The notes under the pieces: generated by a model | Seen by the model: the letters and a program-made list of their open reading frames with translations, nothing else | Database searches by the model: none | Told to the model about the DNA's origin: nothing | Position numbers and translations under genes: made by a program | Shown: positions 31,295 to 60,813 of the stretch, one piece after another | Position numbering within the stretch: position 1 is the first letter of the stretch | Layout of the letters: every line of letters starts with the position of its first letter | Source: Clavelina lepadiformis | Lineage: Eukaryota; Chordata; Ascidiacea; Aplousobranchia; Clavelinidae | Length of the DNA: 64,000 nt | Direction: 5' to 3' | NCBI RefSeq assembly: GCF_947623445.1 | Contig: NC_135240.1 | Location: forward strand, 8,928,001-8,992,000

Positions 31295-34200
31295 ATGTCC
31301 GCAACCCCGCATATGGAATACAGAAATACAACAGACAACCAAACATTCTTCTCCGACGAGGAAAGCTTTAATCGTTTGTGGAACGTTTTTAGAAAGGATG
31401 CTGCTTGGTTTCGTCACCTCTTCGTCTGCGTTGAAGCACTGATGTTGCTGGTTGCAGGCTACATTTTTTCCTCTCATTTTTATCATGCTGTAGTGAGGTG
31501 TTGTTGAGCTACGTTTTTAACCCACGATGTAATGTTCATAAATTTTAACAATTAACTCTAGACTTAGACCTATTAAGTATATACACTATCTACAAAACCT
31601 TTCGTTTGAATTTGGAACCGTAGAAAGCGGATAAGAGTTTGACAATGTTATAACTTTTACAGTCAGAAAGAAAATGGACGCAAACCAACCAACAAGTCCC
31701 GTCTACTTCTTCTGATCGCTGTTATGTTTTGCTCTTCAATGTCTATAGCAAAGTTTATTCTAGCACAGGCCATTGCCAACATCCAACACGACCGACATAC
31801 CTGTACCGCTTTCGCCAAGGCAAACAGGGCAGTCAATATCTTGGGCAAGTACATGTGGTGTGTGTGTAGACAACATCGACAATGTATTTATATTTTTGCA
31901 ACAAATGTCCAGTTCTGAATGCTGGTGTTTATTTGCAGGCTTCACTTCGCTATCTACGTTTTTGTGGCTGCGCCAAAGAGTGTTGTATAATCTTCCACAG
32001 CTGAAGCATTTGGCGACCAGGGTTGTAATTTGGTATGTGGTGACAAGATAATTATAAAGCGTAAAGCGCTGATTTTAGCGTCGTTGTATAACGAAATTGC
32101 TTTAAATCAAATTGGAATAAAGTTTGAATTACAGTAATCAATACAACCGGCACATTTTTCAATCCGCTTGTGGTGAAATTTAGAAATTGCCTTGCGACAA
32201 AGACTGTATTAGTAATGAGCTTTTTTTGATTGACAAAAAATAAATGAGCCCCGAGTCGGCTTCGTTTTATGTTTTGCAACTTTTTACAACTTTTATGAAA
32301 CTTCAGTATAGTTTGTAAGCAACTTATCTGATTACATTTGTTTATTTTACCTTTTTTGAGATGTTGTATGAAAAAGAAATCGAATAGTTTAAACATTTTC
32401 ACTTGCAAATTAATAATTAATTAACCAAGTTGTAAAACTTTAATTCCGCTTGCATACAGAAAACACTGAAGCGCAGACAAATGGCCAATGTTACAAGTTT
32501 TTTGTGTCGTTGCTGGTCTATTAAGCATTTCATAAAAGTTAATATCATAATTTTATACAGTATATCACTTTTAGGCGCGTTTACCAGGCTTTGTTATAAA
32601 AATGTTTAGATGGAAAATGTACATCTTTTGGGGCCTAATTACATGAGCAAATTATTTTCTCTCTATTTTGTTTAACTCTAGGTGGAGCAGAGTGACCCTT
32701 CTCTGTATCGTAATAACCACTGTTGGAGGAATATTAGTTATCGTTTTCCATTGGAAGTCTAGTTACTGGATGTATAACGGCAAGTGCGTTAGCAACGCGA
32801 GTGGATTATCAAAGTCTGCTCTGTCTGGTGTCACCATATGCATCGCTGTTCAAAGTGAGCCTTTGAATGCTTTGTTTGACAATCGATATAGGATTACTTT
32901 TATGTAAAATGGCTGTCAAAAGTCATGTCAAAGTTTCTTCCAACATCTCAAGGAGACGCGTAGGGCGGCGCTTATCCCTGTTTCTATGGACTTGAGACCA
33001 CACGTCTACATGTAGTGAAAGCTACTGCAGGGGGCTGGTCCACTGGTAAATCTGTGTTTGACGTCTTGCTCTAAGTTTACGCCGAGCGTCATACTAAAAC
33101 GCAGCAAGTACCAAATTTCGGTCATGGTACGACCAGGCCACAAGAGGCAGACCCCAGACCTACCGAATGCGAGACGGGCGTCCTAACCACAAGACCATCA
33201 CATCGGTGGCCATCTCAAAATGGCCGTAGGTGATTGGAAATCAAATAAACTCCATTGCTTGGTTGGACCAATGAAATTAAAAATTAGTTTTCCGGTAATA
33301 ATAGTTTTATAACAAAAATGGTTAAAACTAGATCAGAACCTGACCATTATTTCAGCATCCGAAGATTGATTAAAATGCCAGTTTTATCGTGAAACTCAAC
33401 CCTACAATTTTAAGCTTAATTTTTACTTTTTACTAACTGGTTTTACTATACCAGTAAGGTTGCTTATAACGACATAATTGTGTTGAATGCATTTATTTTT
33501 GTCAAACAGTTTCAATGCTGACGCTTTTTATCAAGTTTATTGTCAAAAATCGATTTCGTGGCAGACCGTCTGTTATTGACAAAAAGTCATGGTCCCTTCT
33601 TAAACGCTGCTGTATCCTGACCGCTATTTGCGTTATGGGTGACGTCATCACAATCACGACAACGACGCTTAGTAAGGGTCACGCCCCGGAGTTGGTAAGC
33701 TATCGCAAATTCTAATCCGATTAATCACTTTTTATTATGAACGTGGAAATTGTGCATTTTTTGCTTTCAAACGAGTAAGATATGGCTTTGATATTCATGA
33801 TAAAATCTTAGCGCCTTTGATATATTTTTGAAAATGAGGATATTACGAATTACGTTGTTACTTTAGTTATTGTAATATTGACTATTGTTGTTATTTTTTA
33901 ATTAATTAAGCTTTAACTCAAAACGTAAAAGCGTTAGGTTTTAAAAGAGTCCGAAATTTCTTACACTTTTTTCTGTATTGCTACACCAATATGTTTAAGG
34001 ATTTTCTGGATTTTGTTGTTCTATACATCGCTCCCTTTTTGGCAATGACTATTTTTGAATACAGTACTTTGGCAAAGAGGTTGATTGCAAAAATTCGCTT
34101 CCTCATGCAAAGCTTTTCCATTCATGTGTGATACATTTGCCGGACTTCAACGACGTAGTTTATTTACGATATCGAATAACTAGATTAAAATATCTATACA

Positions 34201-34519
34201 CCTTAGAGCTTTTCTTTGTATTTTTCAGCTTACTGTGCTCATTGTCGACATGGATCAATTTCTTGGTTTGCTTTGCGTCGTGTTTTGCTTCGCGCAATGG
34301 AAGAAATCGTTTTTCTCGTGGCCTTGCTGCTCTTTTCTACGACGTAATGGGTTTATTTTGAGAAAACAAAATGCAAAAGAGCCTGCCAAGTTGCGTGTTG
34401 CCTGCATTTCCAAATCAAACACTTCTCTAACTTCAAATGCAAGGACACTTACCTATTCCAAGGAGTCGCATTTACCTCAAACAACTGAAAAGTCGAGGAC
34501 TAATACTAAAATATCTTGA
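31295..34519 (+). CDS. Copy A: seven-transmembrane receptor-like protein, 6 exons, 375 aa
   Basis: Not a family I can name. Exons: 31295-31497, 31663-31844, 31939-32032, 32682-32854, 33510-33694, 34229-34519; intron phases 2-1-2-1-0. An in-frame stop lies two codons before the ATG. The N-terminus has sequons NTT (11) and NQT (15). Predicted membrane helices are about 43-66, 82-106, 115-139, 164-183, 206-229, 250-271 and 280-300. Cys115 tops TM3, Arg140 lies at its inner end in FLWLRQRVLY, and Cys195 is in outer loop 2, as in rhodopsin-like GPCRs. Charged residues fall within helices: Glu47 (TM1), Lys98 (TM2), Asp262 (TM6), Asp286/Asp288 (TM7). TM7 ends in a basic cytoplasmic turn with SWPCC, then a Ser/Lys-rich tail. 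Intron 2 uses a GC donor (GCAAGT). Intron 4 carries a SINE-like repeat. Closest to copies B and C. Surface receptor is inference; ligand unknown. Confidence 0.85.
32939..33215 (-). mobile_element. tRNA-derived SINE-like repeat in intron 4 of copy A
   Basis: Read on the - strand, the head resembles a tRNA gene: TGGTCTTGTGGTTAGGACGC covers an A-box, and GGTCTGGGGTC downstream sits where a degraded B-box would be. A tRNA-unrelated body follows and ends near 32940. It contains no open frame and lies wholly between exons 4 and 5 of copy A. Boundaries are approximate because no clean target duplication was found. Confidence 0.55.
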
Positions 34520-36351
34520 ACGTAGTGCTTACTGATGAAAACACTCTGTCGTGAACTAGAGCTGTCCTATAACCTTTTCAAGGTTTGTTTCTTCCGGAAG
34601 AAATAGAAGTCGTCTCCGAGTTGTTTTGCTGAAACTTTGATTTTGCAAATTTTCGTCAGCACATATTCACTTCCGAGTAAACCTGGATGAGGCTGGAACG
34701 AGCTGTTTCTTATTTGAAAGCTCACCTGATACAAAATTCATTGTGCAACTTGCATTACAGTAGACGACGGTTGTGGTAGTAAAATCAAGATGTTCAAACG
34801 AAGTGTAAATTATTTTATAACAGACACAATTTCTAAAAACGTGGTTGAAATGATGACGCATAAAAAGCATGAAAAAGAAACATTCGCAACACACACCAAA
34901 AACGCTTAGTATAAAGGGCTTCTTCAAACGCTTTGGTTATTTTGCAGAAAATGACAGAGCGACAAATACACATGTTTTTTTCAAAGATTATTGTTTGCAT
35001 TTAGGAAACTTCAAAACTGGTATGCTCTAATAATATACTACAAGCGAATCTTTTGAAATGTATTTAATTGAGTAGTTACCTGAAAAATCAACCGCTATAA
35101 CATTTTACCCTAACTTGGATTCGCCTATTTATCTGCACAACTGTATAAGCATTATCCACTTGCATAGAGATTTACACACTGGAGGTCGTTGTTGAGCATA
35201 AATGGACGTGTTTACTTGAATATAGACGTTTCCGTGCGTCACTAGCAAGAGGGTCGGTTTGCATTTTTACGTCCGTGATGGAAAACGTATAAGCTTTCAG
35301 CTAATTATCATTGATATCATGTTTTGTGTTTTTGCTTGAAAGGAACTATACAGATTTAGAAGTGATTGTCAATTGATTACATATTATTGTGAAAGATGCA
35401 AACAAGTGCGTTAACTCAATGGATGTGCTTTTGATCGCTTTAGTTGCTTTCATTGCAAGAAGAATAATTTAGATATCTATAAGTTCCGTAAATTATATTA
35501 TTTATTCATTAATTTGTACAAAAATAGATATGTGCAATTTTACTTGTCATTGTGCATAAAGTGTGTGCATTAATTTATTCGCACTTGGCAACAAAAATAA
35601 ATCGTTATCTAATAAGCGCATCCAATCACTAAATAAGCTGCAGGGAATGAAATTCTTCTGATGCTGACCCTGCAGCTATAAGTGACAGGCCTTCTTGACC
35701 CTATGGCAGTAATAGCTGGTTTTTTTGGCCGTTTCTACGTCAGAAGAAAAATAAAGCTAATCCAAATAATGAGGATACTTCAACAGAAAGTTTAAGAATA
35801 GTTGAAAAACGATTCGTAAACCAAGATTTTAAGGGTTGTAAGTTATAGAAGTAAACTTTCTACAAAAGAAGAAACACGCCATTTACGCTATTCTGCCTTC
35901 GTTAAAGGTTTAGCAGTGGCCTGAAATTGCGAGTAAGGTGACATTTGATAAGCTGAAAATTGACTCCTTAAAAGCGATGAGTACAAACAAACTCGTCACT
36001 TTTATCAATTTCAGCTTACAGCGATTGACCTCACCCTATGTCATATATATAGTTATTACAGATGTTTTATGTAACAATTATAAAACTATATATCTGTCAA
36101 AAATCGTAGCAATGATGAAATTTAGTAAGCAATTATACTGTACTTATTTCTTCAAATTTACAGCACATATCTAGAAAGGTAAACAGTTAAGTTCTTAGTG
36201 ATAAGAACTCTGATAAGCCTCTACAGCAGCCTCAAACTTTTTCAGATAGTGGTGACGTTGTTTTGTAAACAAAAGTCCTGTCGTAGGCTATAGTCTTCAC
36301 CCTCTGCATAAGAAATCTCCTGGCTCTGATGTTTTGAAGATTGTAGGAAAA
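34520..36351. other. Spacer between copies A and B
   Basis: Contains the 3' UTR of copy A and the promoter and 5' UTR of copy B. AATAAA occurs at 35596-35601, over 1 kb past the copy A stop. An 86-codon minus-strand frame at 34667-34927 has no recognisable features. Nothing else supported. Confidence 0.4.
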
Positions 36352-39300
36352 ATGAGCCCCGCTTTGATTCCAAAAACAGAGATCCAGGCAAATAAGACCG
36401 GAAATGACGAATGGAATCAAAACTATAGTGACACCAACCTGCAGCGGATGTGGAGTACATTTAGAAACAATAATTCTGCTCTGTGGTATTCCTTTGTCTG
36501 CATTGAAGCTTTGATGCTAGCAATGTCCTTGTACATTTTGACATCTCATTTATACCATATTATAGCTTCGAGGTTGGTGTAGTTATAGTACTGCTGTTAT
36601 CCTTTTAGTAGATTTCTTTGGTTTCTGACTTCGACTAGTCGTAACATTTCCACAGGAACGACAAGAAAGCGACTAAATCCCGAAATATCCTTCTCGTTGG
36701 CGTAATAGCCTACGCACTCGCCTCTTCGGCAAGATTCACCTTGGCTCAGTTTATCGCTTACAACCATTATAATGCCAGGAAATGTTCCTTTTACGCAAAA
36801 GCAGATCGAACGCTTCTCATCATAGGTAAGAATATAGACGTTAATTTATGCGTTTATATACGTCAACACGTTCGTACTTATCTAAAGATGCTATATATAT
36901 ACTGTTATATTTATATGTAAATATTTTTGCGTAAGTGTTGTATTGTGAAATATGATTCCGTCAATCAAATTTATTTTCATTTATTTACTTAACCGTGTTC
37001 TGGCTTGGTGGCCGTGTTAACTTCATCGTAAAACACAGCATGGAACTATAAAAATCTGCATGGCATGTTTTAAATCACTTCTGGAGTTTTACCACCTTTT
37101 CCCATTCAGTAACTGTATATGAGCGTAACTTTTTATTATGCTATAAAAATTTACAACCAACTCATCGCTGCGCACAATCAATCAAGAAAAATAAACGATA
37201 ATAATCTATTGAAAATAAACACATTTGATAATGCGTTATTTGCGATGATTTTTGAGGCATGTGAAATGTCAGCCACACAACAAACAATAAATGTACGTCG
37301 TGATCCGGGTCATGTGGCGCCGTAAACTTTGAATTATCGGGAGAATTGTAACAGAGGTGTTTACCGGAGGAATTTATTAGAAGTTCAGATATTTTCTTGC
37401 TTATCTTTTAGCATGATCTTGGCTCTAAATCGGCGACTACATAACTCTGGCATTAGCGCAATAACAACCCTTATAAAAGCATGTACAGTATCATTTAAAA
37501 TATTTGAGTAATCTCTGCGTTTTGCTTAATTATTATAACTATGGTTGTATTGGTTGATTTTTGTGGCAATTATATTGCTTGATCGGGAAGTTTGACGCTG
37601 TTTGAGTCTCGATCATATTATCTATTACAGAAACCATAAAATAGATTATATTATAGGCTCGGTTAAGATGACACGACTGCTGTAACAACTGCACCTGGGG
37701 CTTTCGAGATGATTGTAATGTGTATATATATACATTCTTGTAAATAATAACCGGTGATTATTCATTTTTTAGGATTTGGTTGTCTTGCAATGTTTCTTTG
37801 GCTACGACAGCGAGTGATGTACAAATTCCCACAACTGAAGCACCTTGCAACGAAATGGGTTGTTTGGTAAAATATTTTTAACCACTTAAGAAAATCTCAA
37901 AGCAAAATCTTGGTTTTTTATTGGGCATAATTTCTTATAGCTCATATAGTGTTTTTGACAGCTTCTTGTGCTATACATGCTTATAGCCTCCAGCACAAAA
38001 ACCTTGTGTAAGTAGGCGGATAAAGATAAAATATCTCTCTTAAGCTGTTCTCCTAAACATTCAGCTTAGCTACCCTGATTAGCTTATAATTTGCGAGCAC
38101 TTGAAGCCTTTCATACTAGTTACCTTGGCCATTTACCACTTACATTTACGCTTTTACACCTTTTATCATTTACAAATATGACAAAAGACGATAAAGAGCT
38201 TCACTTCGACATTGCTCATACTTTAGTGCGCATGCACGTAGGCCTACATATATGTACATGTATATTATTATAAATTTGCAAAAAAGTAGCTCACCAAAAC
38301 AAAATATCACCGGCTCAGAATATAATTGATATTACTAATTCTTAGCACAATTTTGTTCAACAAGCCTTTTTATTTTAGGTGGAGCAGATTTTCGCTTGTT
38401 CTTATCATTGTAGCCACCATAAGCGGGGTCGGTATAGTTCTTGGATATTGGAGATCAGTGTATTGGGTCTATCACGGTAAATGCGTTAGTAGCGCAAGTG
38501 GCTTGGCGTCATCTGCGTTGTCTGGCGTTGTGACAAGCATCGCCGTGCACGGTAATAACTGCTGCGTTACTCTCTGCATAAAATCGTTTTTAATCAAAGC
38601 AAACGCTGGCTATGACTGATAGTATAACCACGACCAGCGTATCCAACAAACAAATAAACTATGTTGGTTTCAGTAAACAACAACCGGATCTTTATACTAG
38701 CAAAATCTTTAGTGTGACGCTCAAAGATCTTACACGTTTGACTTTGTTTATTTGCACAGTTTCACTTCTGTTTTTATTTGTGCGCTTCATTGCTCTAAAT
38801 CGAATGCGCGCTGGAAAAAAATTACCCTCCAATGAAAAGACGACCGCTCTCGTAAAAAGATGTTGCATTCTTACAGCTGTATGTATAATCACTGATGTCG
38901 TTATGCTTGTGGTAACCACACTCATCAAAGGTCACGTACCTGAAATCGTAAGTCACGCACCGATAACATAATGTCTGGTTTGTGACATGTTGACATGTGA
39001 TGGTAAATGGAAGAATGTATTTTGACAAACAATAATATTATTGCATGCTTGAATAAGCTGAAAAAGCATCAAACACTTTTTTGTGACATGGTATTAAGAC
39101 GATTGTTACCTGCGGTTTTATCGAAGTTTGTAACGAAATATAAAAATAAACGATAAACTTCATATAAATTATGTCATTTCGTAAAATATTGAAGAAAAAT
39201 TTTACTTTTCAGCTGACTGTTCTAGTCCTGGATTTGGATCAAATTCTCAATTTGAGCTGCGTGGTTTTGTGCTTTGGACAATGGAAAAACTCTTTGCTTC

Positions 39301-39425
39301 CATGGCCCTGCTGCTCGTCAATCGTCGCCAGAGGTCATGCTGACGTTGGAAACACGTCGAACAACAATAATGAGTTTTTCAGTATGCGCATCTTCACCAT
39401 ATCGAGGCCTATTATCACTACTTGA
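36352..39425 (+). CDS. Copy B: seven-transmembrane receptor-like protein, 6 exons, 352 aa
   Basis: Same unnamed family as copy A. Exons: 36352-36572, 36656-36825, 37773-37866, 38379-38551, 38760-38947, 39213-39425; all GT-AG, phases 2-1-2-1-0. Exon 2 lacks an ATG and is easily missed, but it encodes TM2 with RFTLAQ and the Cys at the top of TM3. Sequons NKT (14) and NYS (24) lie in the N-terminus. TM1 has FVCIEALML with Glu52. Cys117 and Arg142 are exactly 25 apart, in the same FLWLRQR motif, and Cys197 is in outer loop 2. TM6 has KRCCILTAVCIITD. TM7 has LDLDQILNLSCVVLCFGQW then LPWPCC. The start is the first ATG that gives a short N-terminus like copy A; a TTG-led frame extends slightly upstream but has no support. 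Likely a cell-surface receptor by topology only. Confidence 0.85.
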
Positions 39426-42260: not shown

Positions 42261-45200
42261 ATGAAATCGACAAAACTATCAATAAATGGAAGCGGCATAG
42301 ACCAAAAATCGTTCAGTAATAACTCAAGAGGCGATTTACTTGAACTGCAAAACTTGCCCAACCTTCGTATGCTGTGGATTTGTTTTGTTTGCCTGGAAAC
42401 AGCGATGTTGGCGGCTACTATGTATTCCCTGATTTCATGTTTATGCCATACTTTTGTCAGGTCAGTCTGCAATAATTCCTCAATATACTTTAAACCACTT
42501 TTATCAAAAGCATCATTGAAAATCTTTTTTTTGGCAAAATTTCTCTCGTTTTACAAAACTTCCGGGTATTTTTTCGATGCTTGTCCATTTTGATCGAAAA
42601 ATAACAGAATATTTCGTGATACGTGTAATGCGAAATGCGAGAGAAACGCGTCATTACAAACTTTCCCTATGGTTCCACCGATAAAAGGAACTACACATCA
42701 TGCAAACAAATCTAGCTTGATTCTTCAAGAACAAACCAAACCATCATTATCAAGTCATCAGAATATATAGACCGAAGCACAATTTGAGTTGCGCATAGTA
42801 TGCTGTTGAGGGTTGCTTTTGTCGAAAAACGAGAAACTTTCATTGCTGAAGCATAACCTTGGTTTGTCTAACCTAAACTGATGCATCTGTTAACGCAGAA
42901 TTTATTGCTTAAATACTAAGCTTATACAAGTATTACATTTTAACACGTTCGGATTATTGCAATGTACATATAGCTAGCAATCTTCGAACAACAGCCTATA
43001 GCATTTAGTAAAGTTATGGGCATACAACTGGCAAACTTAAGAATTTTTAACAATTTTTACAAACTGATTCAAAACATTTGGTTTAATTTTGTATGGGTTA
43101 ACCTATATTTATGCTGGAAACGGCTTCGAACAGAAATTTAACTTTGTGAAGTTTGTGAAATTAATATAATTGTTTATTTGATTGCATGCACTAATATATA
43201 CTTCATTTAAAAGTTTTCGCACGAACGCTTCCACAGTCATCCTCATATATTTTAGATTGAAACGTGAGAAACACAAAGGATACAGAAATCCCAACTTGAT
43301 TCTGCTCTTCTTTGTGATTATGTACACTTTGACGGCGTGCGCAAAGTATTCTCTTGCTCAGGTTGTGACTTACATGTACCCGGACCCGCATCTCTGTGCC
43401 GTGTTTACCAAAGCAAGTCGAACACTACATGTAATTGGTGAGATGTTTTACCACTTTATATTCAAACGTAAATTAATCGTGTGTATAAAATATAATTTTT
43501 TTAACGCTTTGGAATAGCTTAAGAACTACCTAGGCACATAATCATATGCTATATACTGATGAATAGGTTTTATTTAACACGTATAGCCAAAGTTTCCTAT
43601 AATACAAGGTTCGATTTAAATTAGGGTGATTTCACCTGTAAAGCTTTTACTGGTCTGTTTTTTAGCAAAATCTTTGCACGCTTGCTTAGCCTTGCATGCA
43701 GTGAACTTTTGGCCTTACTATTTTACAGGCTTCACGTTTCTGACTTTGTTTCTTTGGTTTCGCCAAAGAATTTTGTATGACCTTTCGCAACTGAAGCATT
43801 TGGCGGATAAATGCACAATATGGTAAAATATTTCCCTTCAACAATAAATATTTTGATGCTAAAAGATTATAGGATCCTACTCGATCACAAACAATTACTG
43901 GTATAAGGGAATGTTAACTACACTACACAACATTGAAAAATAATCTTTTATAATAATCTTTATAATAATAATTGCGTTGATAATAATTCAATAATTGAAT
44001 TGTATTTAATAACTTATAACAAATAATTTAATCTTTTATAATAATAATCCACTATAAACAAATTTAAGAGACTCTTAAGCATGTCATGTAACAAAGATTT
44101 AGAGGAAGCGTTTGCTTTGTGTAGGTGGAGCAGAATAACTCTTTTAATGATTGTCGTTTCATCTGGCGCTGGCGTTGGCATAATTCTGTCTACCACAATT
44201 AATCAATCGAGGTACAGGGTCCACGAAAATCAATGTATCAACATCGAAGAAAAACTTTCTGTGTCTGCACTTTCAGGCGTGATATCTAACTGCGTCGTCC
44301 AAGGTAGGCAACTTCATTTATTTATGATTTGAGGGAAGTTCTAACGCATTTGCTAACTCAAATTTAAATGGAAATGAAGATGGTACCAAATTACGTTGAA
44401 TACCCTCCGTGTGATATGGGAATAATTGCTATCTTTAGCAATCTTCCCCAAGTCGTGTAGGTCGAATTGCATTTTAAGTGAACGTAATTTTGAAAACGTG
44501 CTCTTATCAAATGCAGTGTCGCTGCTTATACTTTTTGTTCGTTTTATCGGCAAACGCGAACTGAGTAGCAGCAGTAGCTTCGACAAGAAGACCAAGTTGC
44601 TCGTGCGCCGTTGCTGCCTTGTGACCAGTATATGTGTGACAACCGACTTATTAGCTATCGCTATTGTCACCTTTATCAAAGGACAGGTGCCCGAATTGGT
44701 ATGTACTATGTTTATATATATCGGAGCGTGACAAATCATTGTGTGGCTCAAATAAGCTTACTTAATTAGAAGCATACTAAAAATAAAATATTAAAGTTAC
44801 TGTACTTTGACCTCAAAATTTTCCACTTATTTAACCATATCGTGGGATTTCTGTGGTTTCTCTAAAATTTTATTTTTACGGTTTTTATACACCTATAAAC
44901 GGTTTTTCACACCACGTTATCCAACTTATTTATGCTCAATTACCCGATGAAAATGATATGTTATCCTATATACTTTTCTCTTTATATATAAATTGCGCCA
45001 ATTCTGTGTAAACATATATATAGAGATTCAACTGAGATTTTCATTCAATCAAATACTGTGCATAAATGGGTAATAGCCAATATATTCCCTGAACCTTTGC
45101 AAACCTTATCTTCAAAGCAGTTGAAAACAATTTGGACCTACTATATTGTTACTTTTTCTACGCTCACACGATTTCTTTGTGAAAACGCTTTACTTATGAA

Positions 45201-47012
45201 CAAGTATAAAATTTAGACAAAAAGGCAAGTTAGCGGCTTACCAAATATCGAGGCAGTAATTATTCTTGAAATATTGTTTTAACTTTTTGGTGATCATCAG
45301 GCGTCTGTAAAAGTGCAAAGTCATAACACAAACATTCCACGAAGTTAAGCCAACACATCGCGGAGTTTGTTGATAAAGATTTTAACTCGAGATCGCTTTG
45401 ATAAACTTGGTCAGAATAGTTTGACCAACATTAGAACGTACAAGTAAATCAACTTTGAATACTTCGGGTGAATACACTTTAACAGGTTAAAATGATTCTT
45501 TGCTGTTGATTTGCTCTTAAACAGAAAAGGCTTTTAGACTATATTTTGGTTAAATTGAATTTCGCTTGACACAAGAAACTTCATCACCTCCTATTAAAAT
45601 GCATGAGAACAATTAGTGATATCTCGAGACTTTTCAAGTAGATATTTCGTTAACTCGAAGAGTCTTTAGGTGCCCAGGCCGTACATAGTAGACTGCCCGT
45701 TCTGAAGTCTGCATAGAGATACAAGCAACCGCTGCAGTAAGAGAAAGGTGCAACACAAAAGAATCAAAGAAAATTTACTGAGAAAAAAAAGCAGTAAAAC
45801 AAGTGCATAATGTTGATGACCCTATGAAGCAGTATTTAATATCAACCTATATTGAACACCAGCCAATGAGAGTTGAGGCCGTTGATGGTACTGTCGCGCT
45901 AAATTTTCCGACCAGGAAACTTCCCGCTCTTACGGCTAGTCAATTAGCCCGCTTCCGCTCTTCTAACTTTTAATCACGTTGACTTGAGCATGTCTAGGAT
46001 AAAAAACGGTATTTTCTGTATTGTCCATAAAAAAAGAAGCAGCCTTTCTTCAAAGTCCAAAACGTAGAATAATACTTGTCTCTACGAATCCCCATCACCA
46101 CAACGCAATCAATCAAGTGGCGAGAACAAAAATTGCGGGCGGCGCTACATGCCTCAGAGAGAAGCTACCTAAAAGTTGTGCACGTGTACAGGAAACTCAT
46201 TAAAAACGACAAAAAGAATAGTCGCATACCGGTGATCTTAATAAGATACACATTGTGGATATTGAAACAAACTATAAAAGCTTAAATCGTGCGCAAGAGT
46301 GTTTGTCATATTATATGAATATAGAATATATCTACTGTAAAAACGTATCACTGTGCAATGGTAAACAAATAACCTACGTACGTTCGCCTGATAATTACAA
46401 AATAAGAGCCGGCGAATCATCGCAAAACACGCTAAATAACTTTAAATTTGGTGACAGTATACTATAGGCCTCAACGGCTGTAACTTTGTGATATAACCGA
46501 CGTTAAAAGGTTAATGCCATTACTGTTATTATACTATGACAATCAAACAACATTTAACTTTTTATCACAAAGAATGTACAAGTAGGTAAAATAAAATAAA
46601 GTTCTTGTTAATTTATTGTTAAAAATGCATCACTTCCCTTCATGACTGTTGTAGTCACGTTATTTGTCTACAATTTTACAAACTTCTAATAACTCGAAAC
46701 AACTCTTCTCAATTTTGAGTGAACAAACATGCACTGTAATTGTAGTTAACAATAGTAGCAGTCAGCTGCAGATGGTACAATAGTAACTTAGTTTGTGCCA
46801 ACTATAACATGACAACTTTCCTGCAATTGCAGATCACAATTCTCATCCTCGACTTGGATCAATTTGTCAATTTATCTTGCATCTTGCTTTGTTTCTTACG
46901 ATGGAAGGAGATTCTCTTCCCGTGGCCAGTTTGTGGATGTTCAAAGAAAAAAGAGAAGAAGCAGTCCTCAGAGTTTCTCACGGCTGTGAAGATAACAACC
47001 TTGTCTTTATAA
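42261..47012 (+). CDS. Copy C: seven-transmembrane receptor-like protein, 6 exons, 338 aa
   Basis: Same family as A and B. Exons: 42261-42460, 43256-43437, 43729-43822, 44125-44303, 44517-44698, 46833-47012; GT-AG, phases 2-1-2-1-0. The last intron is long (2.1 kb). An in-frame ATG at 42216 would add 15 residues; 42261 is preferred because it matches the short N-termini of A and B. Sequons NGS (9) and NNS (20) precede TM1, which has FVCLETAML (Glu46). TM2 has KYSLAQ. Cys114 and Arg139 are 25 apart, and the motif at the end of TM3 is FLWFRQRILY. Cys196 is the outer loop 2 cysteine. TM7 has LDLDQFVNLSCILLCF, then LFPWPVCG and a short Lys-rich tail. It converges with copy D on the other strand. 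Function unknown; receptor role inferred from topology. Confidence 0.84.
45912..45942. repeat. 31-bp element shared with 58190-58220
   Basis: This 31-bp block is repeated with one mismatch at 58190-58220, in the same orientation. It starts CCAGGAAACTTCCCGCTCTT and ends TAGTCA. The core GGAAACTTCC is a near-palindrome of NF-kB type, overlapping TTCCCGC, which resembles an E2F half-site. Here it lies in the last intron of copy C, and the other copy lies about 410 nt upstream of copy E's start. Shared regulatory site or a small repeat fragment are both possible. Confidence 0.55.
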
Positions 47013-48081: not shown

Positions 48082-48368
48082 GCAGGTGCAGAACAAACAA
48101 ACAATGTTTTGCCGAAAACAATACAACTTTCGTAAAAGCAGTGCTGAAAAGCAGAGTCGTGGAACATATATTTACAAACAACACTTCGAAATTAATTTAC
48201 TTGGCTTGTTTCCTTTGTTGTTATTAATATTCCACTTACAGTACCCCATTAAAGAGTTAGAGCCAGCATAGACATTGCAAGCAAAACTCATTCACTGTAA
48301 ATCCTATACGAGCAAACACGAGCAGCTTTAAGGGAAACATGTAGTTTATAAAATAGCAATCAACGAAA

Positions 48369-50284
48369 CTACGCTGCGTGTGTCGACACCGTTCCTGATT
48401 GCTGTTCCTTTGTAAAAGACGTTGTCGCTGGCTGCTTATCGACGGTTTCGATGCGCACGCGACAAGGCCAGGGCCACACAATTTCCTTCCAGTTAGAAAA
48501 GCATAAAATTGTGCAAGAAAGATTTATGAAAGCGTCAACGTCCCAGATGGTGAAGATCGTCTATATGAAGTGAAATATATCATTGAGCGGGCATGATAAT
48601 AACCAAAATAACAAAAAATGTCCGTATAACTTTACATCGGAAAAGGTGTGCTTTTAGGCCGAAGACTACTGCAAAGACTTACCAGTTCTGTTAGTACTCC
48701 TCTGTAAACCACCCTTAGTATAATCGCGGTTATATCAGAGGTTGCAGATATAGCAGCAGCAATTGTGCAGTTTCTCACCAGGCGATGGACTCTTTTATTA
48801 GTCGAAGTCCCTGCATCCTCAAGATTGATCGTCTTTTGATACCGCCGCAAGATGTGGATGAAGAGCGAAAGAATAGAAGCTGTAAAGGACGAAAATTCTC
48901 ATCAATTTGAGAAAACACAGCTGATACAGTCGTTACAGTTTTGCAAAGAATTCAGTTAAACCTTGCAGCAAAATAATGACGGAATAGCCAATGTAGATGG
49001 TGAGCGAATTGAGTGTATTTTCGTTTCGTAGTAAGCAAGCATTGCTCCCTTCGATGTGGACGAAATTCTCGGCCCGGTTGGACGTGGCTACACCAACCAG
49101 CGCAGCAATTCCGACAACGATAATGACGACAAATAGAGCTCGGCTAAATCTGCGAACGAATATTGTTAAAAATAAGCAAGCGCTTGCATGCAGATGTATG
49201 TGGTTTATTTTTGTTGCTCACGATGCCGTTTTCTTGTCACACCGCACCAGCCAGCTGTCTTAATTTAAATTGATCACGCTTTTATTACGTCACATCTCAA
49301 ATTATATCAAGCTTCTGAAAAGTGTTTTTCGAAATGCACGAAAGTACAGTATAATACGAATTTGATTTGAAATACCTTATAATACAGGTCGTAGCATAAT
49401 GCTTCAGATGTGGTTCCTGGTATAGAGTATATTGTCTAAGCCAAAGAAACATGTAGAGCGCTATCAGTCCTGCAAAAATGAAAATGCTATACTGAACATT
49501 ACATTTTTATTTTAACCAGCTGTAATTTACGACTTAAAAGCAGAAAGCTATAGCGGTGTGTTTAATGCGCCGTCAAGGGTGAAAAACACCAGGTAAAATT
49601 TTGAAAACCTTTCTCAGTTAACTATAAGTAACTATATAGTTAGCATTAAACTGGGGAATATATAGCCTACATTTAATATTTATTACCAGTTGTATTAAAG
49701 ACTTGAAAGACCAGCGAGAACGTCGCACATTGGTCTGCAGTAACCTTTCTGTCGGGGATGTAGTAAATCCATTGGGCCAAAGCAAATTTTCCAACGGAGG
49801 TAAACGCAAAATAGACCACCAAGCCAAACAAAACCCTTTTTCTTCTTTCAATTGTACGACTTGCTGCACTTTCAGGCGCTTTTCGGCTAAAATATACAAC
49901 AAAATAAACATGTAAATTGGATAAACTGTAAACTTGTTTACTGGATACCGATTTCCTAAACCATAGTGTATGGCACTTTAATATTAATCATAGTTTTGCA
50001 TAACTAAGCATTAGGTTAATCCAAAATGAAGAAAAATGTAATAAGAATACTTACAACTTTTTCGCGGCATAGTAAAACAAGGAGATGATCAAATAGGTTC
50101 CCAATATCAAGAATATGGTTTCAATGGCAATTTGGGCCATCGCCTGCGCTTCGTCCACATCGTACGAGGAGACATTTTTAGTTTCGTTTGTCGCCATATT
50201 ATTTGGCACTGTATTGTTGTTACAGACTTTGTGAAGTTGCTGACTACTTAAGGCCACAGCACTGATTAGCAGTACTATCTCCAT
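48369..50284 (-). CDS. Copy D: seven-transmembrane receptor-like protein, 6 exons, 366 aa
   Basis: Second subfamily of the cluster. Exons in transcript order: 50055-50284, 49687-49886, 49376-49469, 48962-49149, 48683-48879, 48369-48560; GT-AG, phases 2-1-2-1-0. Unlike the other copies it begins with a signal-peptide-like segment, MEIVLLISAVALSS, then sequons NNT (23), NET (33) and NVS (37). TM1 has AIETIFLILG (Glu55) and TM2 has KFALAQ. Cys130 and Arg155 are 25 apart. The end of TM3 reads FLWLRQYTLY, so Tyr replaces the last Arg of the A-C motif. Cys213 is in outer loop 2, in EGSNAC. TM6 has ATSDITAI. TM7 has IWDVDAFINLSCTILCF, then SNWKEIVWPWP and a Thr/Ser-rich tail. The last exon contains no ATG and was found by similarity. 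Receptor role is inferred. Confidence 0.85.
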
Positions 50285-52349: not shown

Positions 52350-52655
52350 AACGTCCGTCCGTCCGTCCGTCAACTCTTTTATTGTACGGTATGACAATTT
52401 TCATCCTTGGATTAGGGAAAGTTTTGCGCGACTTACACCTGGCAATGATTTCTCATCGCTAGAGCCCCGGTTACCGAGCTAGCCATTGTGCAATTTTCGA
52501 CAGACAGACACACACATTTTTAAGCTATTTGTTTTTATCGCTTTGCCCGAATTTAGAACTTTTCACCAGGTCCACTTAACAAGAGCAAGCGTCGTATAGT
52601 ACCAAAGCGTCAAGCGAGGCCAGCACTCTAACCATTCGGCTACTGAGCCGGATAA
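52350..52655 (-). mobile_element. tRNA-derived SINE-like repeat
   Basis: On the - strand the head has TAGCCGAATGGTTAGAGTGC, an A-box in a tRNA-like context. A weak B-box-like stretch (AGTTCTAAATTC) follows further on. The body ends in a short GGAC tandem tail, seen on the + strand as GTCC repeats at 52352-52371. This head-body-tail layout is typical of tRNA-derived SINEs. The spacing from A-box to B-box is longer than in a true tRNA gene, so this is not a functional tRNA. Boundaries are approximate. Confidence 0.55.
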
Positions 52656-53767
52656 TCATTATTTAGGCAGTTATGAGCAGAATGGTTGTGCGGTCCTAAA
52701 AAGCTATAACTTTAACCAGGCGATTCATCTCGCTGTCGATGTCATAAAGTGATAGTGGTTAACTAAACCTTTCACTCTTAATTCTAGCAAAAGTTCGCCC
52801 GATTCAAAAAGCATGAAGGACTAGCTCTTCACGTAGCACTTAGCTCGAGCGTGTGTAAAATATTCTCATGCGAACTTGCTCTTGACTTAAAGTCGTTAGA
52901 TTACATTAGAACGGATAAAACTAACAACTATACGACTATATCACGAACCTCCTTTCCATCCAACACTCAAACCGAACAGTCAAATTATTTCAAAAAAAAC
53001 GACGGGAACTTGAAACAATTAGCGGGAGAAGCCGGCGGCATTATTGGTTCACGCAACAGATGCGACAAGAAAAAATCACATTAACACAAAGATGCAAAGC
53101 GCAAAACATGCGAATCATTAACGAAATAAACCATTTGAGTAAACAGAAAAAAGCTAAAAAAAATAAAAAAAAAACGGCCGATCGACAAACGAAACAGAAA
53201 AAATACGCAAACAATAAAACCAAAGCTGTTGAAATCCAAATAAGTGCTCAAACACAAATTAAAAAAGTATAACAATAAACACAGCAACAACATATAGTCA
53301 CATATATGTTACACATACACGAAATAATTAAAGTTCTGGAACTCTGTGTGCATTGACGCCGTAAATAGATCCACTGTACACAAAAGTAACGAGAATGCCA
53401 AACAAACGAGGGATTGGCTCCAATCTCCATATAGATCGAAATCAAAAAAGTCTCAGAAAAGGATTTCTGTTACGATCCAAAATGAAGTTATTGCCTATGG
53501 AAACAGTGTTTAATGAACATCACCTCACACACATCGAAGATTTGGAATACTTTCATTGTAGAACGATTAAGTAGAAAAATTGCATTCTCGCCACGGGAAG
53601 GCTTTGTTATTGTACATGATGAATGGAGTTTCATCATTGTGATACACCGACGACAGTCAAAAGAGACTATCCAGTTTCAATCAAAATTTTATACTTTCGC
53701 ATACACTAGAGAGCGAACTGATAGAATCCCCCGCAAAGCAGCAACATATCCAGGCAAGAAAATTTAG

Positions 53768-53829
53768 ATCATCATCAGGTACCATTTTCATCATGATCAT
53801 TTTCATCAGGATCATCATCATCATCATAG
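53768..53829. repeat. Interrupted ATC microsatellite
   Basis: Runs of ATC/TCA triplets interrupted by TTTTCATCA and GATC-type blocks. A simple repeat in non-coding sequence. Confidence 0.75.
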
Positions 53830-54805
53830 AAATTATCACGAACATAGAACAAAGTTTCATCTAGTTATCATCGGCCAACCATTACTGTACAAATAACAAG
53901 AATACAAAGCAACAACAAGAAGCATCGGAATCAAACATTTCGACCCATAACGGAAGGAAATCAAGTGCTGAACGATCTGTTGTTGGTTCGACCTCTTAAG
54001 TATCCATGCAATTCGTAGACGACCCATATAGTTGTTTCCAGCCCGAGAAGAAGACGATGGTGCGAGTTAAGATTGGTGAATGCCGGTACGCCAAAAATCC
54101 CTGACGTGTAGCGCATCTACGAGGAAATCTATTAATAAAAAGATGCTTAAGTGCACGTCTTTTTGCCTCTTTGATGTTTTAGTTGGCCACTGTGTCATGC
54201 AGTCATAACTTTCCTTTCTAATTTGTATTTTGACTTGTCGTCGTTAAAATTTGCGTATAGCTGCAGTTTATATATACCGACCCATGAACCTATAGTGCAT
54301 AGGTTACTAAGAACTTACTGGTTTAAAATAAATTTACTTCCTACTCTCGCAGACACAGAAAATATTAATACTTTCTGTGGTTCAAGTTCTAAGCGTGACA
54401 GTTTTTCTGAGCCGCTTTGTCTTGTAATTTGGGGTGGTTGAAACGAAGACAACACTTTAGCTGCCCTGGTTGAAATCCCAAAGTGCAATCGACTCTTCCT
54501 TCGAGGCAGAGTTGTAAACGGGCCTTACATTGTTAATTCGAACCCGAACCGAATAAGACAATTTATTTGAAGCCCGATTTAGGCTCGAAAATCAATTTTC
54601 CTGAATGAACCAAAGTCATCTTTGAAATCATTCTTTGACTGTCATCCTTTTGTAAGTTGCGCTCTGCGAGAGGTTTTTAGCACTATGCGCGCAAATACAT
54701 TCGTGTGAAGAAAGTGAAATTACGACACAAAGCTGTCGTGGCTGTGGCAGAGTGTGACTATAAATTCGGACTCCAGTCTGGGCCGATATTTATTCAAACT
54801 TAATT

Positions 54806-54852
54806 AGCCCGGATCCGAGCCGAAAAGCCCGGATCCGAGCCGAAAAGCCCGG
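54806..54852. repeat. 20-bp tandem repeat, 2.35 copies
   Basis: The unit AGCCCGGATCCGAGCCGAAA occurs twice without change and is followed by AGCCCGG. Diverged relatives of the unit lie about 240 bp to the left, with AAGCCCGATTTAGGCTCG near 54571, which suggests a larger decayed satellite. Confidence 0.8.
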
Positions 54853-55615
54853 CCCGACTTACAATTCTGCTTCGTGAATCAACTTGCAGTTTTATTCCTG
54901 CTGGCGCTTTTAAGTTAGTTTCATCAAGTTTCATTTGGTATATAATTAATCAAGCAAGCAGTATTCAATAGTTTCGAAAAGTCTTTGCTTTTGTCTTTTC
55001 TGTTGTCTTGCAAAACTAATTTATTTTGGCGAGAAAAAACAGCAAAGTACGCAGTTTTCATTCTTGAACAAAGTGCATGGGATGCGAGATCACACGCTGA
55101 TGACCGAATATTCGACTACCATTGTTGTTTATCGTGACGTTATAATATTTTTTTCCTTATTAGATAGAAGCTAGAGTACTATAGCAAAATAGTGCCAAAA
55201 ATAGATTACAATTTAATTGTTTTTACTGTAAAGCTTTCCAGGTTCATTCCAAGACATTTCTTTCTGTGGCACTGAAACGCAAGCGAATAAGAAGCAAAGT
55301 GCATTTGTCATCTACAAAAGGTCTTAGAATTTGCAAGCACCATGAGCGGGCTGAGTTTGCCACATTTACCCCAAGCTAAACATAACTACAACAGGTATGT
55401 ACACTTGCGGCTATCTTTATATATAAAGTATAAATATGCGAATATAGGCACAATTTATACTTCTATAATAATTAATCTATAATGTAAAAGCCGCACTTTT
55501 AAAAAGCCACCAAAATCGTACCATCACCAGTGCACTTATTGTTACGTCTGGATGAAAATGGTTTAGTGAAACATCAGCATACAATAAATTTCAACAACAA
55601 TTGTCCGGTAATCAT

Positions 55616-55621
55616 TTTATT
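55616..55621 (-). terminator. Candidate poly(A) signal of copy E
   Basis: AATAAA on the - strand, about 390 nt after the copy E stop at 56007. Confidence 0.35.
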
Positions 55622-56006
55622 TACAATTTCATAAAACCAAATCTTATCATTTCAATTGAACAAATAAAAGCACATTCTGCCATTATATCATACAAAATAT
55701 TTGAATTAGTTTAACTGAGCCACTGCCCTAAAACGTTTCAATTTCATGAAATGGTATTTTCATTACAACTAAGGTTATAAGTACAGCTACTATATTAATT
55801 GCAATATTTCGTAGAGAAAGAGAACGTATTTCGACTAGGACCAGCACACATGTAAAATGTATTACGAATGCGAGCTACAGTTAACCATTTGAATCTTAAT
55901 CAATTTTGCGCAATCCTATCATCGTGATTTGCTGAGACAATGGGGCGTACTCACATTCAACTAAAAATAGCCGTTGTTGAGTCAATCAAAACATCACCCA
56001 CGAGAA

Positions 56007-57781
56007 TTACAACCATGACGATATACTTGGCCTACTATCTCTGCGAACTTGTCTATCTACATTCTGGGAACGAACCCACGGCCAAAGAAGTTCTTTCCAG
56101 TTTGAAAAGCAGAAGATCGTACACACAAGACTAATAAGAGAATCTGTGACAGCAATTGCGTAAAATATCTGAAAAGCAATATACCAAACAAGTCAGTAAA
56201 TTGCTGACTATAGAAGTCAGTTGCAAAGGTGTACTTGCATAAGCTACTAACAGTACACAAGCCTTAAAACTTACCGACTCCGGTGAAGTTTGCAAGTAGG
56301 TGACTCTCATTGCCACGGCAATGACGTCAGCAATTGCAGATACTGCCGCCGCCATCGTACAATTTCGTAAAAGCCGATGCAAACGTTTATTAGACCTGAA
56401 TCCTGCTGCCTTAAGGTTCACATTTACGTTGATTGACTGAAGATACCGCCGAAGTATGTGGATGAAAAGGGATAGAGTGCATACTGCGTATGACATGACA
56501 TATATATTGTAAGTATCATATAGGCCTACATATATCATATACACCAATACTTGTAAGAATTATACAGTATAAAGTTTTTTTTATTATCAAATATTTAAAC
56601 GAAGATTTTACTTACTTTGCATTGCGACGGCGAGAGAGTAACCGGCATAAATGACGACGGAATTCAATTGGTCTTCCATGATCAAAACACACTCGTTTGT
56701 TCCTTCAATGACATTAAAGTTGGCTTCGGCATTTGACAGAGGTATGGTTACAATCGCAGCTGTTCCTCCCATAATAATGGCAGCCAAGACAGCATAACTA
56801 AACCTGTAAGAAACAATCAACTCCTTTTCCGTAAGAATAAGCATACAAGTTGTACCATACTAAGCTGAGTACTTATACTGTAGTGAAGGGTAAAATCTAC
56901 ACCGGAGATTTTACCAAACTTTATAATTACAACTTAGTTGTACATTCTAGATCTAAGATGGAATTTTAAGGTAGAACTTTACCTCAGCAAACAAGGGGTC
57001 GCATAAAGCCTCAGATGTGGTTCCTGATAGAGCGTGTATTGTCTGAGCCAAAGAAACAAATAAAGCGCAACGTGTCCTGAAATTCGAAGAAATAGCTGCA
57101 GAAAAGTCAGTTAGTTCAAGTCTTAATAATATGTCAGCGTATGCGACAAACAGTTTTGCAGAAAATAAAAAACTTTATTGTATGATTGTATGCTATAGAT
57201 AAGAAGCTCACCTATCGAGTTCAAAACTTGAAAAACTAACGCAAACGTCGCACACACGCTTCCAGTTGCCAAATGAGTGGGGAAATAGTACATGCATTGA
57301 ACAAGTACGAGTTTGGAAACAACAATTACCGCAAAACATACTACAAGACCAAATAAAACTCTTTTTCTTCTTTGACAATGTTGAGTTATGATACAATCAG
57401 GCAGGCTTCGACTGCAATTTAATTGCGAACAGAAGTTTAAATTGATTTAGAGATTTTTACTGTTTTTTAAGTATGATCTATAAACAAATAATTTAATGTT
57501 TAAGTCGAAACTAAATGTTTTAATGAACACATTGTATACAACACAGAGTGGCAAAACTTCCCGCAGAAAGTTTTGAAACCACTATAACAATTTCGTTATA
57601 ATTATATGGAAATATAAACCGTATTACATATTAAAACTTACAGTTTGGTTGCAACGTAATAAATCAAAGAGATCAACAGGTATATTCCCCACACCAATAA
57701 AAACGTTTCCAGTGTAATAATGGCGGTTGCTCGTCCTTCATTCCTATACAAATGCAATGAAAAATTTCTAGTCTGATTCAT
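56007..57781 (-). CDS. Copy E: seven-transmembrane receptor-like protein, 6 exons, 330 aa
   Basis: Closest to copy D. Exons in transcript order: 57642-57781, 57212-57411, 56983-57076, 56616-56803, 56275-56483, 56007-56168; GT-AG, phases 2-1-2-1-0. Exons 2, 3 and 4 have exactly the same lengths as in D (200, 94, 188 nt). The N-terminus is short, with sequons NQT (2) and NFS (6) and no signal peptide. TM1 has TLETFLLVWG (Glu25) and TM2 has KLVLVQ. Cys100 and Arg125 are 25 apart, in FLWLRQYTLY. Cys183 is in outer loop 2, in EGTNEC. TM6 has AIADVIAV. In TM7 the DVDAFINL of D is changed to VTDSLISL, so one of the two acidic residues is lost, and WPWP is WPWV. Likely a surface protein; receptor role inferred. 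Confidence 0.84.
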
Positions 57782-58189
57782 GGTCAAAGCTTCTTCTATA
57801 TTGTTGTATCAGTCCAATATAGCTATCATATACGTTTTAAATGTAACTGTATCAACCGATTGATCATCACAAGACCAGCTTTCTATACAGACAATATAAA
57901 ATGCGTTTGTGCTGAGGTTATTTTTGGACTTTCCTGTTTTAAATCTGTCCATCAAATACCTTTCATTTTTAATAACTGTGATTCTATTCATAGTTTACAC
58001 ACATGTAATGTTGCAGCTAGATTTGGGCCTGCACAAGCCTTGCCTATCACGCTGGAAAATGTCGGTTTATATCATTAAACAACCTTTCCCGTAAAAAGTA
58101 GTTTCTTTGTTTTCACCTTAGTTTAGTAAGCTGTAAGGATAACGGATACATATCTTAACCATTGCACTTTTAACGTTAAAATCTTCTGT

Positions 58190-58220
58190 CCAGGAAACTT
58201 CCCGCTCTTACGGTTAGTCA
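58190..58220. repeat. 31-bp element shared with 45912-45942
   Basis: Matches 45912-45942 with one mismatch (T for C at position 25), same orientation. It lies about 410 nt upstream of the start codon of copy E, so it could act in that gene's control region. Confidence 0.55.
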
Positions 58221-59395
58221 CTGTGGCCAAACTACAACTTCCCAAATGCCTCCATTTGTAGGCAGAATAACAGCAACAGATTTTCTAATTCTTGTAACAT
58301 CTCATTAATCTTTTGACACAACTTCATTCAATCACTTGTCACAATCGTCGCAATCACTCGAATGAACCCAAAGCTACGTTTCAACGGCACATAGCCCACC
58401 AAGCTAATTAATATTAGCAATGAGTGGCGTTACTTGCCTAGGATAGGGAAGGCGTGAACGGGTTGGAGACAATTCTACACATTAAAATGATTGCACAAGT
58501 AATAAAAAGTGAGACGTCCAACCAACACGTGATTAACCACACGGATAAATATACACTTTAACTGCGCGTGTTCTGAATACTCTACCAAAAACACAAAATA
58601 AAAAGTCAAACTACAAACTTATCCTACGTGAAGTGAATCACTATAGTAATCAGATTTGCAAATATATAACAAGCATAAACGTGTTTATGAGCGCACGGCA
58701 AACAAACTATGATGTACGTCACAATACGTTACAAACATGAATATCTTAAATTCTATGAACGTAAGTGAAAAAATACAAAGCATGCATTTTGTCACACATT
58801 TCTATATGATTTTTTTTCAATTAATAACAAAAAATTGCTTTTAAACTATATGCGCATGTCTTACAGAAACAGCTTAACGCTGTTGCTAATGGCGCATATG
58901 CGGCAAAAGGTGTTTCAACGAAAACATTTTATGCTAAAAACAACAAAAATAGAAAGCTAAAACAGTTTCACTTTTTCCAAAATTGCACATCGAAACTGAT
59001 GTATTAATTAGCTTTCTAACACTAGAGTAATTATAACCTATACCAAATAAACAAACAAGCTGTCCAAAATATTTTCTTCAGTTAAAACTAAGCATTTGCT
59101 ATAGGGTCTGAAACAAAAAAATTAAGAGGACAGGCACGAGATGAAAGGCGATTTGGAACCACCCATACTCTTTCAGAATTTGATTTCAGTTTTAAAAAAA
59201 TGCTTTATTCTTCATGAAGAGACTCCAAATTAAAAGGTTGCAAATAGGCTACTGTAGATCAAAAACGTTACGAAAAGCATAGCTGCATGGTACTTCGTAA
59301 TGTTCCAATTAGGTTTGAAACGTTTGTTTCCACTTGAGTAGAATATCAGCCATGCGGCTAATATGTTCAGAACACGAATTATGCGTTGTTGAGTG

Positions 59396-59450
59396 GCCTG
59401 TGGCTAACCTGTGGCTAACCGTGGCATGAGTACTAACCTGTGGCGCATGA
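59396..59450. repeat. Short imperfect tandem repeat
   Basis: CCTGTGGCTAA recurs in full or in part about four times (for example at 59397, 59408 and 59438). Non-coding simple repeat. Confidence 0.6.
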
Positions 59451-59617
59451 GCTGAGTTAACATGTGTGCATCGTAGATTTAATATAGTTTTTTAGTATTT
59501 AGAACCAAAAAAACGGAAAGTTTGTTAACTCTATGTAATATTTTTCGAAACATTGTGAAAAGCGGAAACCTGAACGTGTGAGTCAAAACTGGTGCAACTA
59601 TATAAACTTGAATTGAG

Positions 59618-60813
59618 CTAAACACGGTAAACATATTTTTGTTTGTAGAATCCGTACTCCCATTGGCATAGTTTTTTTTTCATTTTTTGTGAAGTAGTCC
59701 TCCACACTCGACTCATCGCTTCACTTCTTTCAACCAATTGAGCGTCTCCATCTCTGCATAAGCTTGGCCACGGCCAGATAAGTTGCTTCCGGTTGGAAAA
59801 GCATAGAATTGTGCGGGCGAGGTTAATAAAGCAGTCGACGTCCCATATTGCGTAAGCTACCTGTAAAGAAGTTATAAGTTAGGCAAGAAACAGCAACAAA
59901 CATGGTTGTACAAAACAACAGTAAGCAAAACATGACACATTTTCATCACAATTACTTTGAAACCTTTACACCAGGCTGCTGGTAACTCTCGTTGCTCGGC
60001 AACACATTTGCTTATATCTGAGTTGAAAACTTTTAGCCCTAAGTTTGAAAACATCGGAAACGTTCATACTTACCGACTCTGTGACCGCTTTTATGGAAAA
60101 AATTCTCAAAACGACTGCAGCTATATGTCGGAAACAGTTGATATTGCAGTTGCGATTATACAGTTTCGCAGAAGTCGATGTAAACGTTGCTTAGACCTAG
60201 ATCCCGCAGCTTGGAGATTAATAGATCCAGTGATTGATTGACAATATCGTCGTAAAATGTTGTAAAAAAGGAAAAAGAAGCATGCTGTATAGAAGAAACA
60301 GGTTTAGCCAACTGGAAAAGCAATTGTTAACACGTTACATTAAAACTGCACAATTTCAGTAGACCGTAACGGTGATGGTCATGCTACGTAACGGTGATGG
60401 ACATCGCCAAGGTTACAACAAAAAAGTCTCACTCATCAAAGGAAACAAGCAGCCGTTAATTTATGAAACTATCTTTGTAATGAACTTTTCATTTGTGATA
60501 CTAATTATTATAGTTGCAACGACAGTTGAAGCTCTCCACAACATTACCGTATAACTTATATTTGTAATACAGAATGTAAAAATCTTTAAACGCATTTTTT
60601 TAAAAAAAATTTACTGTAGTTCACCTTGCATGGTGAAAACAAGAGTATATCCTGCATAAATAGCAGCGGAATGTAATGGAATCTCTTCGCGTAAAAAAAC
60701 AATGATTTGTTCCGTTCATTACAACAAAAATACCGTCAGGGTTAGTAAAGATAACCACGATTATGGATGCGATTCCGCCGATAAGAGTAACTGCCACAAG
60801 AACGCGACTGAAC
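59618..60813 (-). pseudogene. Copy F: decayed relic of the seven-transmembrane family (exons 4-6 only)
   Basis: Three exon equivalents remain: exon 4 at 60625-60813, exon 5 at 60074-60284, exon 6 at 59618-59860. Exon 4 is 189 nt against 188 in D and E; the extra base lies in a run of seven A at 60693-60699 and shifts the frame before SAAIYAGY. The acceptor of exon 4 reads GG instead of AG (60814-60815). Exon 5 has a frame-shifting indel and an in-frame stop at 60121-60123, inside TM6. Exon 6 is still open, with a good acceptor, IWDVDCFINLARTILCF and IWPWPSLC. I found no exons 1-3 upstream. All other splice sites are intact, so the decay is recent. A cryptic acceptor 6 nt inside exon 4 could keep the phase, but it would not repair the other lesions. 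Confidence 0.8.

Follow-up and report, generated by a model that had tools for sequence, protein, structure and literature searches.

The chemical senses of tunicates, the sister group of vertebrates, are an open question. According to the accessible parts of a 2020 review (PMC7776563), the known olfactory receptor families have not been found in these animals and the receptors they use remain to be shown; the review cites two seven-transmembrane (7TM) receptors in Ciona sensory neurons. A survey by Kamesh et al. (2008), in the sections of it available, used similarity and pattern matching to count 169 Ciona G-protein-coupled receptors (GPCRs), and reports that homologues of the chemoreceptors of nematodes and insects are lacking (PMC2396169). 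The accessible text of Johnson et al. (2020) describes a 'large tunicate-specific' 7TM family around the Ciona gene KH.C3.516 (PMC7397655). Here we analyze a 64,000-nucleotide stretch from the ascidian Clavelina lepadiformis (C1:8928001-8992000, hereafter the window), which contains five intact genes (A to E) and one relic (F) of a 7TM family that an earlier note on this DNA had presented as undescribed, GPCR-like, and perhaps chemosensory. On balance, we read the locus as a tandem array of GPCR-fold receptor genes and as a branch of an extensive ascidian family that evolves fast, for which a chemosensory role is the likeliest.

Predicted fold and conserved residues

AlphaFold2 models of gene B (model me74ee910ffa8) and of one relative encoded by a single open frame are both seven-helix bundles with a hairpin in outer loop 2. 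By residue number, one Cys of each model falls close to where helix 3 starts and another in the second strand of this hairpin. For gene B, 49 of the 50 structure matches listed are GPCRs by title in each of two programs, and the Foldseek matches listed belong to class A. The 50 matches listed for the second model comprise 45 GPCRs and five microbial rhodopsins. VIA-align places class A level with classes C, T, and D. In both members the predicted fold is a GPCR-type bundle, not the non-GPCR fold that would have refuted the earlier note, and on these predictions the proteins very probably adopt the GPCR fold.

The conserved residues were examined in an alignment of 36 members, consisting of A to E and 31 relatives with frames of at least 300 residues (two further genes, G and H, and 13 short frames were excluded). 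Helix 3 carries an Arg at its inner end in 36/36 members, always 25 residues after the Cys position at its start. Both this Cys and the one in outer loop 2 are found in 34/36. The Cys-25-Arg signature also occurs in 12 of the 13 shorter frames, the remaining one starting downstream of the Cys position. The signature recurs more often than expected by chance: of the other Arg residues in the 36 members, 28 of 627 have a Cys 25 residues upstream. Of eight class A receptors from this genome, six have the signature; because a fixed spacing within one ungapped helix follows from homology alone, it is the equality with the class A value that is informative. The Arg belongs to a helix 3 motif, W-x-R-Q, in which W and R are invariant and Q is present in 35/36. 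Elsewhere, helix 5 has a conserved Pro at its inner end (31/36), helix 6 an Arg at its start (33/36) as well as an Asp (31/36), and helix 7 an Asn (26/36), and a Trp follows helix 7 (32/36). The two members that lack both Cys residues, L067 and L068, are sister genes. Their joint loss is a single evolutionary event, yet it is as expected of a disulfide pair. From the positions of the Cys residues and this one joint loss, we infer a disulfide between helix 3 and outer loop 2.

Seven hydrophobic segments are present in the hydropathy profile of the alignment. With loop borders set by hand from this profile, Lys and Arg were found to be more numerous in the inner loops and C-terminus than in the outer loops and N-terminus in 36/36 members (mean 22.9 versus 6.1), and N-glycosylation sequons occur in the N-terminus of 34/36. 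The charge pattern and the N-terminal sequons place the N-terminus and both Cys residues outside, so the helix 3 and loop 2 Cys residues lie on the same side of the membrane, as the earlier note had implied. With borders set in the same way, variability is higher in the outer than in the inner half of all seven helices, both in an array on C5 and over all 36 members, with a negligible difference in helix 2 over all 36 (2.59 versus 2.57). A variable outer and a conserved inner half is the pattern of a ligand side and a transducer side. The predicted fold and the outer location of the Cys residues, together with the failure of searches for known families described below, support the description of these proteins as a very divergent GPCR-like family.

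The genome-wide family and the array

The genome was searched as a 209-Mb assembly of 95 contigs, nine of them chromosome-sized. A six-frame search with gene D yielded 97 matches (E<=10), including many long open frames elsewhere, and further searches used three full-length members and one fragment as queries. By hand count, ~94 single-frame relatives lie outside the window and are spread over all nine chromosomes (a locus being an open frame of ~240 residues or longer, a few with in-frame stops). Sixty-eight of these 94 loci sit in 12 arrays, defined as two or more loci with gaps of up to 60 kb, the largest having 14, 11, 10, 9, and 9 members; the array in the window is additional to the 12. 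Along with the seven intact intron-bearing genes A to E, G, and H, the family amounts to about a hundred genes. All 44 of the 94 loci that were examined as sequence match a profile of A to E (E<=3.2e-8, as calculated within this small set). Thirteen of the 44 are short and most of these start after helix 1, which makes an upstream exon likely, and a single frame is therefore no proof of an intronless gene.

The members are highly diverged. In an alignment of 32 rows (B and C with the 30 long frames other than L041) and another of those 30 frames alone, identity to the first row is 15–24%, the exception being C, at 40% identity to B. A tree unites A to E in one branch (Shimodaira–Hasegawa-like approximate likelihood ratio test, SH-aLRT, 95), within which D groups with E and A with B and C, and the nearest neighbors are L067 and L068 (86). 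The tree was built by a quick method and has no bootstrap values and several long branches; being drawn from the midpoint, it gives no direction for the change in introns, whether gain or loss. The ratio of nonsynonymous to synonymous substitution rates (dN/dS) ranges from 0.13 to 0.73 among computable pairs, which we read as relaxed selection. It was not computable for A-B, B-C, L073-L074, and L073-L075 due to saturation of synonymous sites.

Several loci bear marks of duplication. The copies at C1:1827516 and C1:2031065 are on opposite strands ~200 kb apart, have equal scores, and contain one in-frame stop each, perhaps reflecting an inverted duplication. Those at C3:18114522 and C3:18123675 form a 97% pair, and the one copy having two in-frame TAG codons is probably a recent pseudogene. 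In an 11-gene array at C8:2080390-2130586, the first 60 residues include a stretch that is identical in three copies, indicating very recent duplication.

Within the window, the five intact genes and one relic of the earlier note are borne out by consistent six-exon models and by tblastn remnants. As judged from splice sites and reading frame, A to E each have intron phases 2,1,2,1,0 and an exon 3 of 94 bp, and their second intron falls within helix 3, between the signature Cys and Arg. The Cys and Arg positions, as well as the single outer loop 2 Cys, are as had been claimed. Gene A (31295..34519, plus strand) encodes 375 residues, with C115, R140, and outer loop 2 C195, in exons 31295-31497, 31663-31844, 31939-32032, 32682-32854, 33510-33694, and 34229-34519. 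Gene B (36352..39425, plus strand; 352 residues; C117, R142, and outer loop 2 C197) has exons 36352-36572, 36656-36825, 37773-37866, 38379-38551, 38760-38947, and 39213-39425. The exons of gene C (42261..47012, plus strand; 338 residues; C114, R139, and outer loop 2 C196) are 42261-42460, 43256-43437, 43729-43822, 44125-44303, 44517-44698, and 46833-47012. The last two genes are on the minus strand. Gene D (48369..50284; 366 residues; C130, R155, and outer loop 2 C213) consists of exons 50055-50284, 49687-49886, 49376-49469, 48962-49149, 48683-48879, and 48369-48560, and gene E (56007..57781; 330 residues; C100, R125, and outer loop 2 C183) of exons 57642-57781, 57212-57411, 56983-57076, 56616-56803, 56275-56483, and 56007-56168. 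Relic F (59693..60824, minus strand) is reduced to damaged remnants of exons 4, 5, and 6, those of exon 4 lying in two frames; tblastn of A to E, G, and H against the window recovered nothing of exons 1-3. Just beyond the window, at C1:8993504-9000111, are the intact genes G and H, identical in plan to A to E in their six exons, phases, 94-bp exon 3, and Cys-25-Arg. A GC instead of a GT donor is apparently used in intron 2 of gene A (from 31845) and intron 4 of gene H.

Upstream of the receptor array, pieces of a gene resembling GDI/Rab escort protein occur on the plus strand at 22320-26163, with Pfam GDI matches on two open frames (E 1.2e-9 and 1.9e-10). A 307-residue open frame at 15704-16624 on the plus strand, by eye rich in Ser and Pro, has no Pfam match at E<=0.01.

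Proposed mechanism and alternative explanations

In the mechanism we propose, the N-terminus would be outside and usually carry an N-glycosylation site, and the seven helices would have a basic inner face. Outer loop 2 would be held as a lid over a pocket by a disulfide between its hairpin and the top of helix 3 (the Cys 3.25 position). The ligand would enter from the outside and bind in the outer, variable half of the helix bundle; the helix 3 Arg on the inner side (the 3.50 position) would be part of the G-protein switch, with the conserved inner half activating the G protein. The role would be the sensing of environmental or conspecific chemicals. G-protein coupling appears probable. Chemoreception, to which the size of the repertoire and its arrays, the relaxed selection, the lack of recognized olfactory receptors in tunicates, and the Ciona precedent all point, is about an even prospect. 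Slightly below this we would place the wider proposal, that the chemoreceptor repertoire of ascidians consists of some hundred receptors of GPCR fold, distinct in sequence from all GPCR families tested, which evolved in tunicates in replacement of the lacking olfactory receptors, and that the intron-bearing array in the window is one branch of this mostly single-frame family.

A number of results weigh against the receptor reading as a whole. The column preceding the helix 3 Arg, where DRY or ERY would have Asp or Glu, is below 70% conservation in the 36 rows, and no columns at 70% conservation correspond to W4.50, CWxP of helix 6, or NPxxY of helix 7. Pfam gave no GPCR model for A to E or for six diverse members, and none among the 25 of 31 weak families listed for 32 members; odorant-receptor and 7tm_1 models in particular are absent from 11 full lists and from the families listed for the 32. 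Profile searches of the PDB returned no GPCR. Comparison by hhalign of the 36-row alignment with the eight class A receptors of the genome gave a probability of 1.0% (E 0.052), against 0.4% (E 0.14) for a reversed control. The class A model PF00001 had 182 matches over the genome, and by eye none of those listed is a family locus (147 of 476 candidates were scored, and some matches fall outside the listing). The target-normalized Foldseek TM-scores of gene B are moderate, 0.38-0.64. For the second model, microbial rhodopsins appear at Z values similar to those of GPCRs, which makes the match partly generic to seven-helix bundles. Sequons, rarer outside the N-terminus, occur in inner loops as well (inner loop 1 in 10/36). 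Finally, receptor families that form arrays may also have immune or neuropeptide roles. The Pfam and PDB sequence searches thus agree with the earlier note that no named family fits. As DRY, W4.50, CWxP, NPxxY, and a Pfam model are absent, we do not claim class A membership; the predicted fold, the Cys pair, and the Arg are those of such a receptor.

Several candidates from these searches were rejected. Sarcospan provided the only PDB profile matches (E 1 and 4.6). At E below 0.01, the Pfam models Na_H_antiport_1 (0.00058), DUF4731 (0.0031), and DUF6405 (0.0053) each matched one member of the 32, which we read as chance hydrophobic matches; that to DUF4731 falls short of the cut-off of this Pfam model. 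Kinship by sequence to TAS2R receptors was likewise set aside, as PF05296 had 24 weak matches in the genome, all of them below the cut-off and away from the loci of the family. Recurrent weak PF05296 matches at C9:9.03-9.58 Mb, several of them 755 bases apart, may stem from a satellite-like repeat that has nothing to do with receptors.

The fold and the function can be questioned separately. That these are instead non-GPCR membrane proteins of seven helices (channels, transporters, or structural proteins) merely resembling the receptor bundle is very unlikely. The limitation of GPCR motifs to the two Cys residues and the Arg of helix 3 would fit this explanation, as would the closeness of microbial rhodopsin and GPCR scores for the second model; it is countered by the near uniformity of the titles matched by gene B in both programs, by the outer-loop-2 hairpin that carries a Cys in both models, by the outside N-terminus, and by the joint loss of the two Cys residues. 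A harder case is posed by GPCR-fold receptors for internal ligands, such as peptides, transmitters, or immune and self-recognition signals, expanded in ascidians for non-sensory purposes. Johnson et al. (2020), in the text accessible, name transmitter from neighboring neurons as one ligand option for Ciona KH.C3.516 (PMC7397655), and other expansions specific to Ciona, for example of LDLRR-GPCRs, are described in the available sections of Kamesh et al. (2008) (PMC2396169). Nevertheless, ~100 divergent, mostly array-forming genes with relaxed dN/dS resemble a chemoreceptor rather than a peptide-receptor repertoire, and the KH.C3.516 protein, if it is of the same family, is concentrated at an apical tip exposed to the outside, as stated in the accessible text of the 2020 paper (PMC7397655). 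We hold this explanation to be doubtful, and prefer chemosensory receptors.

The origin of the family is a further question: it could be a true, though extremely diverged, offshoot of class A instead of a GPCR family in its own right, which would be compatible with chemosensory receptors of GPCR fold. The 25-residue spacing shared with class A receptors of this genome, the class A titles of the Foldseek matches listed for gene B, and the Asn-to-Trp spacing of 11 in helices 7 and 8, which is one spacing of the general motif NPxxY(x)5-6F, all speak for such descent. On the other side, the family does not conserve DRY, W4.50, CWxP, or the NPxxY Pro, no family locus appears among the PF00001 places listed, the hhalign probability is 1%, and VIA-align ties class A with three other classes. 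We regard descent from class A as a tentative possibility.

Comparison with known systems

The KH.C3.516 family resembles the Clavelina family in being an ascidian 7TM family with many members and tandem copies; in the accessible text of the paper it has no BLAST hits outside tunicates and is proposed to consist of tunicate chemosensory receptors (PMC7397655). The likeness is one of description, as that text does not mention fold, disulfide, or Arg signature (PMC7397655), and on this footing the two may well be the same family. The term 'undescribed' in the earlier note is therefore perhaps too strong, the Ciona family having been reported in 2020. Searches of the open-access literature, none of which paired Clavelina with receptor terms, listed no title or abstract opening that describes such a family, and we make no claim of its absence from print. 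Priority for noticing a tunicate family of such description probably belongs to the 2020 paper; what is new, as far as seen, is how far the family extends in this genome, along with the statistics of its signature, its topology, the evidence on its fold, and the joint Cys loss. With about a hundred receptor-fold genes recognizable by a simple signature, the question of chemical sensing in tunicates becomes testable by expression mapping and deorphanization. The family also suggests that homology-based censuses of GPCRs, such as the one counting 169 in Ciona, could overlook a repertoire of this kind.

GPRch3 (PMC12716839), compared by description only and from the part of its report available, is a GPCR family outside all earlier ones, with short N- and C-termini and reported deuterostome homologs. 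With class A (PF00001), the Clavelina family shares the predicted fold, the outside N-terminus, the helix 3-loop 2 Cys pair, and the Arg 25 residues after the Cys; it differs from class A in its lack of DRY, W4.50, CWxP, and NPxxY, and is unrecognized by PF00001 or profile comparison. TAS2R genes are often single-exon chemoreceptors in arrays. The class T receptor TAS2R14 holds ranks 1-3 for the second model and rank 5 for gene B (root-mean-square deviation 3.5 Å over 257 residues), tied with other matches. The TAS2Rs are not known to have the helix 3-loop 2 disulfide, and the Clavelina family differs from them in that its loci have no PF05296 match. The odorant and gustatory receptor (OR/GR) channels of insects (7TMIC) are likewise large, divergent families of 7TM chemoreceptors. 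Their N-terminus is inside, whereas that of the Clavelina family is outside according to the charge pattern, a statistical trait that holds in 36/36 members.

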